From assembly GCF_027111275.1 (NCBI RefSeq), contig NZ_CP114286.1, positions 1,674,001 through 1,738,000 of the forward strand: a stretch of 64,000 nt of DNA. Reading direction: 5' to 3'. This DNA comes from Flavobacterium luteolum (GTDB lineage: Bacteria; Bacteroidota; Bacteroidia; Flavobacteriales; Flavobacteriaceae). Below the pieces are notes generated by a model, which did no database searches, was not told where the DNA came from, and was given only the letters and a program-made list of their open reading frames with translations. Made by a program: the position numbers and the translations under genes. Positions 5,395 through 45,256 of this stretch are shown here, piece by piece. Position 1 is the first letter of the stretch. Every line of letters starts with the position of its first letter.

Positions 5395-5847
5395 ATGCCT
5401 CAATCATTATACAAAGTATATGTGCATCTAGTGTTTAGCACAAAAAAACGTTATCCGTTTATTGACGACGATATAAAAGAAAAATTATGGGCTTACCTCG
5501 GAGGAATTTGCAAAGGGCTAGAATGCAATCCCATTCAAGTAGGAGGATATAATGACCATGTTCATATTCTATGCTTATTATCTAAAAAAATTACACAAAT
5601 GAAATTGGTTGAAGAAGTAAAAAAACAATCATCAAAATGGGTAAAAACAGTAGATTCGCGTTATGCAAATTTTTACTGGCAGGACGGGTATGGCATTTTT
5701 TCTGTTAATCCTTCTCAATTGGATATCGTTATAAAGTACATTAAAAACCAAGAAGAACATCATAGAAAAAAGACATTCAAAAAAGAACTTTTAGCTTTTC
5801 TAAACAAATATAATGTTGAATATGACGAACGTTATCTTTGGGATTAG
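5395..5847 (+). CDS. IS200/IS605-like Y1 transposase (RAYT type)
   Basis: This 150-residue protein is a single-domain HUH nuclease. The HUH motif is His55-Val-His57 (NDHVHIL), and the catalytic tyrosine lies in the YxxxQ motif Tyr115-Gln119 (KYIKNQEEHH). Length and motifs match the Y1_Tnp family, which cuts single-stranded DNA at hairpins. There is no TnpB or IscB gene and no obvious inverted ends. The next 150 bp contain hairpins with a common TTTCA loop, as expected if this is a REP-associated tyrosine transposase acting on dispersed hairpins rather than a self-mobile IS. Coding looks intact. Substrate specificity is inferred from context only. Confidence 0.85.
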   Translation: MPQSLYKVYVHLVFSTKKRYPFIDDDIKEKLWAYLGGICKGLECNPIQVGGYNDHVHILCLLSKKITQMKLVEEVKKQSSKWVKTVDSRYANFYWQDGYGIFSVNPSQLDIVIKYIKNQEEHHRKKTFKKELLAFLNKYNVEYDERYLWD

Positions 5848-38962: not shown

Positions 38963-39064
38963 TGTCATCCTGAGCGAAGTCGAAGGACACGCAAGTAACT
39001 CCGCAACAATAATCCAATCTTTGTCGAGCAACTAACGTGTCCTTCGACTTCGCTCAGGATGACA
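38963..39064. repeat. Long-arm inverted repeat with conserved core, copy 1
   Basis: Arms of 29 bp (38963-38991 and 39036-39064) are perfect complements (left arm begins TGTCATCCTGAGCGAAGTCG). The 44-bp core reads ACTCCGCAACAAT...CCAATCTTTGTCGAGC. Copies 2 and 3 keep the core but have different arms. Confidence 0.85.
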
Positions 39065-39094
39065 TACTTTGTATTTAAAAACCTTTGTCAAAGT

Positions 39095-39649
39095 TTAAAA
39101 CTTTGACAAAGGTCGTGGCACGTAAAGCAATAAACCCAATCCTATAACAAAAACGAGACAACTCAAAAACATACAAACGCCATTTTTCAAAACAAAAAAC
39201 GAAAATCCAACAGCAACCGACCCCACAATTACCATTAAAGATTTTACAGTTTCTGTTTTTATAAAAGCAAATGCATGCAAAGCCAAACCAAGAAAAAGCA
39301 AAGACGGACCAACAGCCACAAATGGATAAAAAATCAATGGAGAATTACTAATTTGCTGACTTAATCCATCTTTTGCGATTTCGTTATTTCCGTAACTCGA
39401 CATGATAAAATCGATTGTACAAAGTCCAATATGGGCAATAACGCCTAAAGTTGTCAGTACAGAAGCAACTTTATTGATTTTCGTTTTTGGAAATGCGTCA
39501 TTAAATGATAATAAAAAACAAGCTCCAATTAAATTGAACCAATGCGCAAAATCTATCGACGTATTGAAACTCGGAAAAATGTTAGAAAATAATAAATAGC
39601 TAGCTAAGAAAAATAGCAATCCGATCGTGCAGAAATGTTTTGTTTTCAT
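39095..39649 (-). CDS. Six-TM-like membrane protein, unknown function
   Basis: From ATG 39647-39649 the protein has 184 residues and about six hydrophobic segments, starting MKTKHFCTIGLLFFLASYLLF. A hydrophilic loop (SSYGNNEIAKDGLSQQISN) lies after the third. No family is recognised. Such small polytopic proteins next to LytTR regulators are common in Flavobacterium. It lies 101 bp downstream of the LytTR gene on the same strand and may be its target or partner. Confidence 0.65.
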   Translation of the reverse strand: MKTKHFCTIGLLFFLASYLLFSNIFPSFNTSIDFAHWFNLIGACFLLSFNDAFPKTKINKVASVLTTLGVIAHIGLCTIDFIMSSYGNNEIAKDGLSQQISNSPLIFYPFVAVGPSLLFLGLALHAFAFIKTETVKSLMVIVGSVAVGFSFFVLKNGVCMFLSCLVFVIGLGLLLYVPRPLSKF

Positions 39650-39750
39650 AATTTGTTTTAAAAATTGATGAAGCAAAACTAGAATGAAAATTTGCCTAAA
39701 ATCCCTATTTTATTGACTTAGGTACGAAATGCATTGTTTTAGGTACAAAA

Positions 39751-40491
39751 TTACAATGCCAACAAAACATCTTTATAATTTCTGGAAACTGGAAGTTCTA
39801 TTTGCGTCAAAATAATTGTGGTCGGATTTCTCCAGGATTTAAAGTGCGACGGATTTATTAAATGCGAACGATGAATTTGCACTAAAAAATCGAAATCGTC
39901 CTGAACTTTTTTGAGCGAAGATCGAATAAGTTTTGAATGAAGTTTATCATTTTCGAGAAAAAAAATTTCCACATAATTCTGTGCATTCGAAATACAAACT
40001 AAATCGGTTTTTTTAATTTTTAAAACATCTAATCTGTTTTCTCCTTTAAATAGCAAAACATCGTCCGTTATCGGAATTAGTTTGATTAAATATCTTCTTG
40101 CGAGAATAATCACAGGAGTTACAATTAGAGCGACTTTTATAAATATTGTCGAAAAGAATTCTAAAAAACTATATCCGCCATTTAAAATTGGGCTTTTATA
40201 AAAAGTAAAAACACCAATTAAGTAGAGCAAATGAAACAGAAAAATGACTGTTATTTCTAAACCGATATTCCATTTTCCTATTCTTTCATAAAAGCTTTTT
40301 TGGATAAAAGCTAAAAGACCATAACACAAAAATGCCATAACACTAAAACCAAAACTAATTAAAAACCACGCTCTGAAATTTATAGTTCCATCATCAAATG
40401 GCTTTATGATGAAAGCAAAAACAAAAAGCCATAACCCAATCAGTAAACCGACTAGAAGATTATGTTTTATAGAAATGTTCAGCTGTTTCAC
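39751..40491 (-). CDS. Membrane-bound LytTR-domain transcriptional regulator
   Basis: A 246-residue protein with four TM helices (about residues 11-30, 42-65, 78-97, 108-130) and a C-terminal LytTR DNA-binding domain (about 140-246: DVLKIKKTDLVCISNAQNYVEI, IRSSLKKVQDDFDFLVQIHRSHLIN, LPVSRNYKDVLLAL). There is no receiver domain; the membrane part presumably senses the signal. The start codon appears to be GTG (40489-40491). It probably regulates itself or the neighbouring small membrane-protein gene. Confidence 0.85.
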   Translation of the reverse strand: MKQLNISIKHNLLVGLLIGLWLFVFAFIIKPFDDGTINFRAWFLISFGFSVMAFLCYGLLAFIQKSFYERIGKWNIGLEITVIFLFHLLYLIGVFTFYKSPILNGGYSFLEFFSTIFIKVALIVTPVIILARRYLIKLIPITDDVLLFKGENRLDVLKIKKTDLVCISNAQNYVEIFFLENDKLHSKLIRSSLKKVQDDFDFLVQIHRSHLINPSHFKSWRNPTTIILTQIELPVSRNYKDVLLAL

Positions 40492-40505
40492 TTTTCGATT
40501 TGATT

Positions 40506-40955
40506 TTAAAGTTTCATTTCCATAATAGGCATAAACCGATTTTTTATTGACGTTTCGAATTCACCAATTTTTATAAATCCCATTTTTGAATAAAATTCCT
40601 CGGCGTTGGGTTCTGAATCGAGAATTATTCTTTCTATTTTCTCTTCTTTTATTCGGTTTAAAAAATCGAGAATTAAATATTTTCCAAATCCTTTTCCAAT
40701 ATGTTCAGGCAAGATAAATAAATTATCGAGTTCAATTACTTTTTCATCTTTGAAAACATAAGAATAATATCCTACAATAAAACCATTGTCTACCAATTTG
40801 AAAACGTTATTATCTTTAATATAATCTTGAGAAATGGTTAAATTTTTATCCCATTTTTGAATTTGTTCTGCAGAATACCCCCAATAAGCTTTTGACTTTT
40901 TGGTTATTGTTGTGAGGATTTCGTCGTCGGTTATGTTGGCTTTTTGAATTATCAT
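40506..40955 (-). CDS. GNAT-family N-acetyltransferase (1)
   Basis: A 149-residue GNAT protein. The acetyl-CoA loop is EHIGKGFGKYLILDFL (about 85-100), preceded by the strand VIELDNLFILP and followed by IERIILDSEPNAEEFYSKMGF, the typical C-terminal pattern of the family. Substrate unknown. It lies 14 bp upstream of the LytTR gene on the same strand. Confidence 0.87.
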   Translation of the reverse strand: MIIQKANITDDEILTTITKKSKAYWGYSAEQIQKWDKNLTISQDYIKDNNVFKLVDNGFIVGYYSYVFKDEKVIELDNLFILPEHIGKGFGKYLILDFLNRIKEEKIERIILDSEPNAEEFYSKMGFIKIGEFETSIKNRFMPIMEMKL

Positions 40956-40991
40956 GGGTTTTAAAAATAAGTTTTTTTGTCAGCTTTGAAA

Positions 40992-41125
40992 TTTAACCGC
41001 AAAGCACGCAAAGTTTTCTATTTAAGTTATCTAAATAAACGCAAAGTTCGCAAAGCTGTAAACGCAAAACTTTGCTCCCGATAGCTATCGGCATTGTGTA
41101 AACCTTTGTGGCCTTTGCGGTTAAA
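40992..41125. repeat. CGCAAAG-type long hairpin repeat, copy B
   Basis: Outer arms TTTAACCGCAAAG (40992-41004) and complement (41113-41125), the same 13-bp arms as copy A. The interior includes GCAAAGTTCGCAAAGCTG and a nearly perfect CCCGATAGCTATCGG palindrome (41077-41091). It fills most of the gap between two GNAT genes. Confidence 0.75.
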
Positions 41126-41133
41126 AAACCTAT

Positions 41134-41571
41134 TTACTTATAAATCGTAAACTTATTATGACTCAAAGTAAAACCTAAATTCTCATAAATTGCGACATTT
41201 TCTACTCGCTTTTTATTCGTCGTCACTTCGATACTTTTCAAATTATTTTTCTCAGCAAAATTCAAAATCTCATTTATTAATACTCTTCCAACGCCTTGAC
41301 CACGGTATTTTTGATGAATAAAAAACTCCTGAATTTCGCCAACTAAACCGCAATGATGAAGCAAATTTTGGGTGTGAAAGCTAATAAAACCTAAACCTTC
41401 ACTTTCGTTTTCGGCAATTAGATAAAGATTTTTTGGGTTTGAAATATTTTCATTGAATATCATTTCGAAAACTTCAAAATCTAAGACTTCATTTTCGAGT
41501 TCGCAGATTGCTTTGTAGACGAAGTCTAGGTCTTGATTTTGTATTTTTCTTGTTTTAATTTTTAGTTTCAT
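41134..41571 (-). CDS. GNAT-family N-acetyltransferase (2)
   Basis: A 145-residue GNAT protein with the acetyl-CoA loop HQKYRGQGVGRVLINEIL (about 89-106), the preceding strand GEIQEFFI, and the C-terminal IEVTTNKKRVENVAIYENLGF. Closest in appearance to acetyltransferases acting on small molecules or proteins; the substrate cannot be told. Not a recent duplicate of the other GNAT gene, since the sequences differ widely outside the motif. Confidence 0.87.
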   Translation of the reverse strand: MKLKIKTRKIQNQDLDFVYKAICELENEVLDFEVFEMIFNENISNPKNLYLIAENESEGLGFISFHTQNLLHHCGLVGEIQEFFIHQKYRGQGVGRVLINEILNFAEKNNLKSIEVTTNKKRVENVAIYENLGFTLSHNKFTIYK

Positions 41572-41621
41572 CTTCTAATGCCATTATTAAGATTCTAAGT
41601 TACTAAGATTTTCAACAATCT

Positions 41622-41723
41622 TGTCATTTCGACGAAGGAGAAATCTTCGTAAGGAGCTCGAGAAAGATTGGCGATTTTGATTGCGGAGCTACTTGTGGAG
41701 ATTTCTCCTTCGTCGAAATAACA
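41622..41723. repeat. Long-arm inverted repeat with conserved core, copy 2 (inverted)
   Basis: Arms of 25 bp (41622-41646, beginning TGTCATTTCGACGAAGGAG, and 41699-41723) match at 24 of 25 positions. The core, read on the minus strand, is AGCTCCGCAATCAAAATCGC then CAATCTTTCTCGAG, the same as in copies 1 and 3. The rest of the 292-bp gap 41572-41863 is AT-rich with the XRE promoter at its end. Confidence 0.85.
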
Positions 41724-41851
41724 AAAACGATGTAAACACTATATTTCAAAATCAATACTAGTCAGAAAAATTGTATTTTTACTCCACAAAAAAGAACTTG
41801 CAACTGCAAACTTGTTTTCTGCATAAACCAAAAATGTAAAAGAATTTTAAA

Positions 41852-41859
41852 TATCTTTG
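41852..41859 (+). promoter_or_regulatory. -7 promoter element abutting XRE gene 2
   Basis: TATCTTTG (exact TAnnTTTG) ends 4 nt before the ATG, matching the placement at the first XRE paralog and implying a leaderless transcript. Confidence 0.5.
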
Positions 41860-41863
41860 AATC

Positions 41864-42268
41864 ATGAGCACAGCAATAAAACCAAAACATATCGGCAGAA
41901 ACATTAGCCGAATTAGAGAACTGAGAGATATGAAGCAGGAAGCACTTGCTATTGCGCTTGGTGTTAGTCAGCAATCTATTTCTAATCTTGAAGGAAGTGA
42001 AAACGTTGATGACGAAAAACTAAGCAGAGTTGCAGAAGCTTTGGGAGTACCAGCAGAAGTAATTAAGAATTTCTCCGAAGAAGCTGTTTTTAATATTATC
42101 GGAAACACCGCAGAAAATAGTTCTTCAGTTGTTAGTTTCGGATGTACTTTTAATCCGTTGGACAAACTTCTTGAAACTTTTGAAGAAAATAAAAAGCTTT
42201 ACCAGCAGTTAATTCAAGCTGAAAAAGAGAAAGTCGCTCTTTTGGAAAAGTTACTTGATAAGAAATAG
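41864..42268 (+). CDS. XRE-family helix-turn-helix regulator (paralog 2)
   Basis: A 134-residue paralog of the gene at 4788-5183. The N-terminal HTH (IGRNISRIRELRDMKQEALAI, SQQSISNLEG) and the C-terminal FNPLDK plus Lys/Glu helix (YQQLIQAEKEKVALLEKLL) are strongly conserved, while residues about 80-100 differ. The shared, conserved helix may form dimers or mixed dimers of the two proteins. It has its own abutting -7 box and terminator. It is flanked on both sides by long-arm inverted repeats (copies 2 and 3). Confidence 0.85.
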   Translation: MSTAIKPKHIGRNISRIRELRDMKQEALAIALGVSQQSISNLEGSENVDDEKLSRVAEALGVPAEVIKNFSEEAVFNIIGNTAENSSSVVSFGCTFNPLDKLLETFEENKKLYQQLIQAEKEKVALLEKLLDKK

Positions 42269-42290
42269 AAATTTATTTTTATAAAAGAAA

Positions 42291-42325
42291 AAAACCGAAG
42301 CTTTGAAATTGAAGGCTTCGGTTTT
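42291..42325 (+). terminator. Terminator of XRE gene 2
   Basis: AAAACCGAAGC pairs with GCTTCGGTTTT over a 13-nt loop, followed by a T run, about 22 bp after the stop. Confidence 0.8.
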
Positions 42326-42340
42326 TTTATGCTCATAGTT

Positions 42341-42442
42341 TTGTCATTCTGAGGAACGAAGAATCACACTAGAAATTCCACAATCAAAATCGCCAATCTT
42401 TATCGAGTTCCGAGTGTGATTCTTCGTTCCTCAGAATGACAA
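42341..42442. repeat. Long-arm inverted repeat with conserved core, copy 3
   Basis: Arms of 30 bp (42341-42370, beginning TTGTCATTCTGAGGAACGAA, and 42413-42442) are perfect complements. The 42-bp core reads TTCCACAATCAAAATCGCC then AATCTTTATCGAGTTCC, the same core as copies 1 and 2. Confidence 0.85.
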
Positions 42443-42461
42443 ACTTTTTGTTTATCAATCT

Positions 42462-42504
42462 TTGTAGAGCTACTTGCGATCCTTCGACTCCGCTCAGGAA
42501 GACA
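42462..42504 (-). repeat. Truncated copy of the long-arm repeat (one arm and part of core)
   Basis: Read on the minus strand it starts TCTTCCTGAGCGGAGTCGAA and continues into GCAAGTAGCTCTACAAAGATTG, matching one arm and part of the core of copy 1 with several changes. The other arm is absent. It shows that copies decay or arise incomplete. Confidence 0.65.
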
Positions 42505-42534
42505 AAACAGAACTTAAACTTTGTGTTCTTTGCA

Positions 42535-44983: not shown

Positions 44984-45256
44984 GCTGGACGAAATATTTA
45001 TAAAATTTATTCTATTTGCAAAAAACCCAGAGGAGTGAAACATTTATAAAATTATTCCATCAGCAGACCCCAGCGGGGTAAAATATTTATAGAATTTCAA
45101 TAAGACAAATAAAAAAGCTCCGGAGGAGCGACATTTTTTTGTGTAATTTAATATATGTCGCTCCTCCGGAGCTTTATATTGTAAAAAACATTCTTAGCTA
45201 TAAATATTTCGCTTCTCCGAAGCTTACAAAAAAGGAGCTATCTTTTTGAGACAGCT
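44958..45256. repeat. 299-bp interval bounded by 13-bp inverted repeats and filled with a CTCCGGAGGAGCGA motif in both orientations
   Basis: AGCTGTCTCAAAA (44958-44970) recurs as its exact complement at 45244-45256. Between them lie, in direct orientation, units at about 44984, 45030, 45070 and 45117 (for example CAGAGGAGTGAAACATTTATA, split: CAGAGGAGTGAAAC plus ATTTATAAAATT; CAGCGGGGTAAAATATTTAT; CTCCGGAGGAGCGACA) and two inverted copies (45157-45173 TGTCGCTCCTCCGGAGC; 45198-45225). No gene lies in this 338-bp gap. Confidence 0.75.

Follow-up and report, generated by a model that had tools for sequence, protein, structure and literature searches.

Three units of a repeat lie close together in the 64,000-nucleotide stretch of Flavobacterium luteolum analysed here (contig NZ_CP114286.1, positions 1,674,001 to 1,738,000; hereafter the window). 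Each has two long, near-perfectly inverted arms around a core, and a truncated copy follows them; a first-pass annotation described this arrangement, and direct reading finds it as described. The arms differ from unit to unit, but the two arms of a unit are alike and the core is kept. Why should both ends of an element change together while its middle is conserved? An answer is offered here. Each unit is a doublet in which two TGTC-tagged modules of the repetitive extragenic palindrome (REP) kind stand inverted (head-to-head) around a Flavobacterium-type spacer. Such doublets are a known kind of element; what is new is that the core has been inverted at orthologous sites, at 14 loci. Template switching at inverted repeats would explain both the matching of the arms and the inversion of the core, and we give this explanation a probability of roughly 0.6.

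A dispersed family with matched arms

The genome which holds the window is a single contig of 5.36 Mb; it was compared with three relatives, G206, G201 and G305. The view that the units belong to a repeat family with a conserved core is borne out, as core and arms recur throughout the genome. BLASTN with the second unit of the window (U2) returns 91 rows and a covariance model returns 146, palindromic units often being listed on both strands; 150 of 3110 candidates were scored with the model, and the copy number from this search is a lower bound. At least 80 distinct full units are present in the F. luteolum stretches analysed, and 79 of 80 have the Flavobacterium-type core. The same arms and core also occur on named Flavobacterium contigs. 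A search of the genus, which the annotation had proposed, finds matches to the model in 34 of 61 genomes, and these rise with genome size (Spearman 0.70, 60 genomes). The annotation also placed all units within 3.6 kb, beside small regulators. This is true of the window only, where three full units in 3.6 kb form a local cluster; the family is dispersed over the whole genome.

Units are mostly intergenic: of 55 F. luteolum units, 53 have a reading frame on either side, one is at a locus edge and one is inside a frame (simple frame caller). Gaps between convergent genes hold 16 of the 53, compared with 61 of 450 background gaps (Fisher 0.004), and divergent gaps hold 4 of 53 compared with 58 of 450. 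The enrichment between convergent genes agrees with the placement reported for REPs in PMC3733652. Other dispersed inverted repeats, for example GCCACGAATTACACAAATT, occupy the same intergenic regions (L142 1588, L143 14809, L146 11538, L074 2633 and L095 3529). There is a tandem of three units, spaced at 147 bp, at 985901-986293 (L076 4902, 5049 and 5196); in G305 the flanks of each unit lead to a near-empty gap, which means a difference in the copy number or layout of the array. The doublet at L051 127 is tight and has CCT/GAGCGAAGTCGA-type arms with a different short core; G206 has it too.

The arms within a unit are matched well beyond chance, as the annotation had noted for the window. 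Among 100 F. luteolum arms analysed, 62 sit in 31 head-to-head pairs, 65-78 bp apart. The paired triplet of the arm is common to both partners in 30 of these pairs and the whole arm class in 26; permutation gives a mean of 7.8 identical pairs and a maximum of 16 in 10,000. With all loci pooled, classes are identical in 82 of 122 units with the Flavobacterium-type core (permutation mean 19.0, maximum 33 of 5,000), and a laxer arm caller finds them identical in 57 of 80 F. luteolum units. Cores partly track arm class: core identity is 0.743 within a class and 0.648 between classes, and the nearest-neighbour core is of the same arm class in 38 of 82 cases, against 17.7 expected. The classes are thus partly sub-families. 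However, the units at L042 and L019 have cores which are 88% alike and yet different arms on both sides.

Core inversion at orthologous sites

Both flanks of each unit were mapped to the stretches of the relatives, and the trimmed core was compared in both directions. The stretches of G206, G201 and G305 were mostly chosen for carrying units, so empty sites are under-counted. Between F. luteolum and G206 (mean flank identity 94.3%), 33 sites comprise 15 same, 3 inverted, 1 empty and 14 other; this comparison leaves out 47 of the 80 F. luteolum units, which do not have both flanks within the compared stretches. Against G305 (91.1%), the 26 sites are 8 same, 4 inverted, 4 empty (of which three form a single tandem array) and 10 other; mapped from G305 to F. 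luteolum, 26 sites are 10 same, 6 inverted, 1 empty and 9 other. Against G201 (89.9%), 5 of 27 sites are the same (one of these is doubtful), 4 are inverted and 18 are other. Among the relatives, G206 mapped to G201 (90.2%) gives 24 sites (9 same, 3 inverted, 12 other) and the opposite direction gives 16 (8 same, 4 inverted, 4 other). No inversion is found at the 7 sites of G206 mapped to G305 (4 same) or at the 8 sites of G201 mapped to G305 (1 same). The few empty sites are without clean borders, and no target duplication is readable there.

Altogether, 14 distinct loci in the four genomes have a core inverted between conserved flanks. Identity of the inverted core is at least 0.90 in at least one direction at 10 of the 14; among random same-class unit pairs, 19.8% reach a core identity of 0.82 and 3.6% reach 0.90. 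The clearest flip is L110_3922 compared with G305, where the flanks align up to the arms, the arms are identical and 38 of 38 trimmed core bases are identical. At L039 the F. luteolum core is inverted relative to both G206 and G201, which places the flip on the F. luteolum lineage (relative to G305 the identity is 0.81, under the cut). At L077, F. luteolum and G206 agree and G201 is inverted. Flipped loci of the F. luteolum genome include those at about 4143921, 4444480, 2096114, 4574480 and 1297155. Core inversion, which the annotation had not foreseen, is the commonest clear event in which the core is kept.

Inverted cores make up 3 of 18 same-plus-inverted sites in the closest pair and between 3/12 and 4/9 in the others, although the numbers are small. 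Core flipping is not a fast switch; its estimated rate is a few flips of a unit for each substitution per site.

Changes in the arms and replacement of units

A process which alters both arms alike, as the annotation suggested, does occur, but it is not the usual event. One locus clearly shows such a two-arm change with its core kept, and three more probably do. In the clear case, L048 compared with G305, the same T is inserted in both arms and core identity is 0.95. L110_10303 compared with G201 is less clear: core identity is 0.86, and the G201 arms have a common loop which is found in neither F. luteolum arm. The other two, L457 and L461 of G305, are among the weaker flipped units. L050 compared with G201 was considered as a further two-arm switch and rejected, as there are tandem units there and the match is apparently to the neighbouring unit; it remains counted among the 5 same sites of that comparison.

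Most changes affect one arm. A class swap in one arm with the core kept is found at L107_5088 and in the right arm of L093 (four bases, two compensated pairs); other one-arm changes are about 27 extra bases (L091_18487 and L110_4799) and single substitutions. The long-loop variant with these extra bases (TGCTTCGCC...CTCGAGTC) is also found at L144 17386; some units have the insert in one arm, and the orthologue is without it. In same-unit pairs of F. luteolum and G206, differences occur at 16 of 589 arm positions and 32 of 748 core positions.

Where both arms are of another class, the core usually belongs to another unit too, as at L110_3922, L098, L109 and L049 compared with G206. Many of the sites scored as other hold a full unit which is different or partly different: 10 of 14 with G206, 5 of 10 with G305 and 12 of 18 with G201. 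One-arm changes and in-place replacement of whole units are both commoner than two-arm changes.

The arm as a REP-like module

The main-class arm reads TGTC-AT-NNN-GA-x-GNA-x'-GA-N'N'N'-AT-C, in which NNN pairs with N'N'N' and x with x'. The closing pair and loop of the main classes are C GAA G or G GAA C; a longer loop is found in the first unit of the window (GAGCGAAGTCGA) and in the truncated copy (GAGCGGAGTCGA), and further loop lengths exist. The arm pattern GTCATNNNGASGRASGANNNAT has 150 matches in the F. luteolum genome, and the reversed pattern, used as a control, has none. Of these matches 100 were analysed: the triplets are complementary in 98 and the closing pair in all 100 (60 C-G and 40 G-C). 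The unpaired, terminal TGTC tag, one of the CGTC, TGTC or CCTC tags of the CGTC/TGTC REP superfamily, is present in the window units and the aligned F. luteolum units; in pattern-based sets GTC was preset. In a 24-unit alignment, chosen independently of this feature, the first two stem positions are a near-invariant AT with its complement opposite. In DNA, tandem GA pairs and GNA loops have unusually high stability.

Arms of this type extend far beyond the genus, and their discrete classes recur in several phyla. A scan with the G-GAA-C loop, using one genome per species from 84,980 species, gave at least 119 stretches from several phyla; of the 114 arms in the 80 stretches analysed, 103 are complementary. 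The matches listed include Flavobacterium, Pedobacter, Mucilaginibacter, Spirosoma, Hymenobacter, Prevotella and Chitinophagaceae, as well as cyanobacteria (mostly Calothrix-type) and Chloroflexota. In 30 distinct arms, pairing is present in 95.0% of cells, compared with 77.1% when shuffled and 20-50% when slid; the search pattern fixed most columns of this set, and the test covers three triplet pairs and the closing pair only. Among the compensated triplets, few cells (5 of 90) are wobble pairs.

Compensated pairing, on which the annotation relied, is therefore real, but it lies inside each arm, including single arms in other phyla, so that pairing of arm with arm is not the whole story and the arm is itself a REP-like module. 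In Spirosoma, Mucilaginibacter, Ferruginibacter and others, doublets of such arms surround unrelated cores; the core is thus the lineage-specific part.

An insertion sequence (IS) also recognises the arms. It inserts at one exact place, GTC^ATNNN^GA, with duplication of the five bases ATNNN, and encodes a protein of 324 amino acids with integrase-core (rve) domains. There are five delimited copies in G206 (the four measured are 1041 bp), in arms of classes TTC, TCC and CCT. Single IS ends are found in F. luteolum at L007, L023, L080 and L095, and also at L117. Nine of 11 listed matches to the IS end pattern abut an arm; the orthologous pair L083 and L415 does not. The IS shows that a protein is able to address arms of several classes.

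Origin of matched arms and inverted cores

According to PMC8604942, template switching between inverted repeats homogenises the arms and inverts the spacer; PMC8794818 reports that it creates and maintains hairpins. Template switching is preferred here because both arm homogenisation and spacer inversion are present in the units. During replication the 25-30 bp arms would pair into a hairpin, and an occasional template switch of the polymerase from one arm to the other could overwrite an arm with the sequence of its partner and reverse the spacer. The arms of a unit would then be alike through being copied as matched pairs and re-matched by switching, and the core would be kept in either direction.

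Several results weigh against this explanation. Arm differences at shared units are mostly confined to one arm, so re-matching of the arms is not fast. Four of the 14 inverted loci reach only 0.83-0.88, and with 19.8% of chance pairs at 0.82 these could be other units rather than flips. A control set of 64 other inverted repeats from the F. luteolum stretches, of which 37 mapped to G206, has 16 same, 0 inverted and 21 other. The difference from the units is only suggestive: for F. luteolum and G206 (3/18 inverted) it is not significant (Fisher 0.23), and 8/30 inverted against 0/16 is marginal (Fisher 0.04, G305 not yet counted). Assembly error may be a source of inversions, although two of the genomes are single contigs. 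Four lone arms have weak nearest-neighbour energies, no better than those of shuffles. Frequent in-place replacement of units falls outside template switching, and the uniformity of the arm across phyla falls outside template switching alone; the likeliest reason for both would be recognition of the hairpin by a putative protein.

Such recognition is central to one alternative, which we consider unlikely: a dedicated enzyme, either a Y1/HUH transposase acting on single strands or a site-specific recombinase, might read the arm hairpin and flip, exchange and spread units. The model is the role proposed for REP-associated tyrosine transposases (RAYTs) at REPINs, the hairpin-forming REP doublets. 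It would account for the uniform arm module and for whole units being replaced at the same site, and the precise insertion of the IS shows that proteins can address arms. Y1_Tnp is also present in 28 of 33 unit-bearing genomes and 12 of 27 unit-free genomes (60 genomes; Fisher 0.002). The annotation had proposed to check this correlation; it is positive, but largely shared with genome size (Spearman 0.46, falling to 0.22 once size is taken into account). No Y1_Tnp match exists in five genomes which have 11-65 model rows and are at least 99% complete, and arms were not found in the 3.3-kb loci around the two full-length local Y1 genes, where other hairpins occur. The RAYT at 5.4 kb in the window, named by the annotation as a possible partner, has no arms in its locus. 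Tested on flanks and on presence in the 60 genomes, a RAYT partnership is not supported, despite the raw correlation. The inverted shares (3/18 at 94% flank identity, about one third at 90-91%) also seem too slow for typical invertible switches. Somewhat less probable again is a wider version, in which a putative enzyme common to Bacteroidota, Cyanobacteria and Chloroflexota reads a TTGTC-AT-NNN hairpin in single-stranded DNA, turns cores, swaps units at fixed sites and matches arms; the units of a genome would then be a programmed, exchangeable set and not passive repeats.

Two further alternatives are improbable. The units might be transcribed 3'-end hairpins, selected as RNA (terminator or stabiliser), with selection keeping the pairing and flips being neutral. 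The strong hairpins, the intergenic position and the convergent excess fit this, but the window has no Rfam match at gathering scores except two tRNAs, wobble pairs are few, and between two genomes whose flanks are about 94% identical some units have been replaced or are absent; nothing here shows the structured RNA that the annotation considered. The other is an ordinary family of miniature inverted-repeat transposable elements (MITEs), with a few old sub-families as arm classes and chance replacement by other copies as the source of inversions. Cores do partly follow arm class and in-place replacement by other units is common. However, inverted cores at 0.90-1.00 are rare in random same-class pairs, arms recur across phyla around other cores, and the ends are variable around a kept middle; we hold this no more plausible than selection as RNA.

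Template switching remains the preferred explanation. Each genome holds tens of replicate hairpins in which spacer inversion and arm matching are datable and countable. If the explanation is right, small-scale template switching in bacteria would be measurable by genome comparison, and the units may provide numerous natural test sites.

Units and other features of the window

Coordinates of the units are given in Table 1, together with those of the Y1 gene, the IS loci and the inverted loci. The arms of U1 (29 bp) and U3 (30 bp) are perfect and those of U2 (25 bp) have one mismatch. Folding energies as single-stranded DNA are -39.9, -29.4 and -34.0 kcal/mol for U1, U2 and U3, with z-scores of -12.5, -7.7 and -11.5; for each unit, none of 200 shuffles is equally stable. 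The core motif CTCCGCAATCAAAATCGC is exact in U2 only (reverse strand). U3 has two base differences from it, and U1 is two bases shorter than the motif, with more differences than U3; the window cores are conserved, yet not identical. U2 is not present in the counterpart region of G206. The single arm of the half-unit U4 is on the minus strand and belongs to class CCT, its loop being GAGCGGAGTCGA; relatives have a similar half-core at this site with different arms behind it.

The Y1 proteins are IS200-like by NCBIfam, and one has a sub-threshold REP-transposase match; judged by motif only, they resemble subclass 1.2 as given in PMC6006769. An inverted repeat GCTCC..GGAGC with GTCGC, at 45114-45175 of the window, resembles hairpins beside the L031 Y1 gene (L031 ~1200-1500 and after 1947), and is a likelier partner of that gene than the units studied here.

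Table 1. Coordinates of units and associated features. Plain positions are those of the window.
Feature	Position	Strand	Remarks
U1 left arm	38963..38991	+	class CCT, loop GAGCGAAGTCGA; direct reading
U1 core	38992..39035	+	44 nt; G206 has an orthologous unit with the same arms
U1 right arm	39036..39064	-	inverted copy of the left arm
U2 arm	41622..41646	+	class TTC, loop GACGAAGGA
U2 core	41647..41698	-	52 nt; orientation opposite to U1 and U3
U2 other arm	41699..41723	-	one mismatch
U3 left arm	42341..42370	+	class TCT, loop GAGGAACGA
U3 core	42371..42412	+	42 nt
U3 right arm	42413..42442	-	
U4 half-unit	~42456..42505	+	right half-core CAATCTTTGTAGAG... then one arm
Y1 (IS200-like, RAYT-type) transposase gene	5395..5847	+	PF01797 at 5407-5751; NCBIfam transpos_IS200; not part of the units
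IS locus	L341:11075-12049	-	
Other IS loci	L342, L348, L367		
Inverted loci, F. luteolum	L093_5048, L073_4981, L039_1503, L077_5056, L110_3922, L097_6417, L044_1503, L015_1456		core identity >=0.90
Inverted loci, relatives	G206 L359_5553; G201 L412_4825		core identity >=0.90
Inverted loci, weaker	F. luteolum L105_5016; G206 L344_7400; G305 L461_8018 and L457_9669		core identity 0.83-0.88

Comparison with known systems

No published account of this family, or of core inversion in REP doublets, was recognised among titles and abstract openings, in a search which subscription papers mostly fell outside. To judge by their titles, the listed papers which contain arm strings do so by chance, in primers for example. 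The MITE described from Cardinium (PMC9769881) was set aside as a separate, IS982-derived element. Like the ERIC, NEMIS and RUP MITEs named in PMC3733652, the units are about 100 bp, mostly intergenic and present in many copies, with long inverted repeats. Unlike MITEs, they have ends which vary in class around a kept middle, and no parent IS was found; arm pairs 300-3000 bp apart, sought as the ends of an autonomous element, are present in loci numbered L162 and above.

A segment found in both orientations between inverted repeats is also a feature of invertons (PMC11892184) and of small inversions in chloroplasts (PMC2903610). Invertons, as presented there, are switches which make populations heterogeneous; here the segment is about 50 bp, it flips slowly and no recombinase is known. 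Arm homogenisation and spacer inversion are shared with template-switched inverted repeats (PMC8604942, PMC8794818). Those reports concern individual loci (yeast genes or RNA hairpins), whereas here there is a dispersed bacterial family with tens of replicate loci.

The units are closest to REPINs and to CGTC/TGTC REPs. As in REPINs (Bertels and Rainey 2011, PMC3116915), two inverted REPs and a spacer form one long hairpin and are dispersed between genes. In REPINs, however, the spacer is reported as less conserved than the REPs, which lie close to specific RAYTs; in the units the core is conserved, the arm classes are exchangeable, the tag is not GTAG and a RAYT link is unsupported. The CGTC-tagged REPs, which apparently have no dedicated transposase (Di Nocera et al. 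2013, PMC3733652), share with the units a tag (CGTC, often TGTC), a complementary AT at the start of the stem, a mostly head-to-head dimeric arrangement and an intergenic position between unidirectional and convergent genes. They are reported in five phyla, including Bacteroidetes. Their published stems are 8-9 bp, with loops of 4-5 nt and a tail which is mostly CCA, whereas the units have 5 bp, GA/GA and 1 bp, a 3-nt GNA loop in most arms and the tail C; the units are therefore not placed in any of the four published families. The long conserved core and its inversion were not noticed in the published description of CGTC REPs. To the CGTC/TGTC REPs, the units add a concrete family in which their mover may be sought, and an IS which uses the arm as its address.

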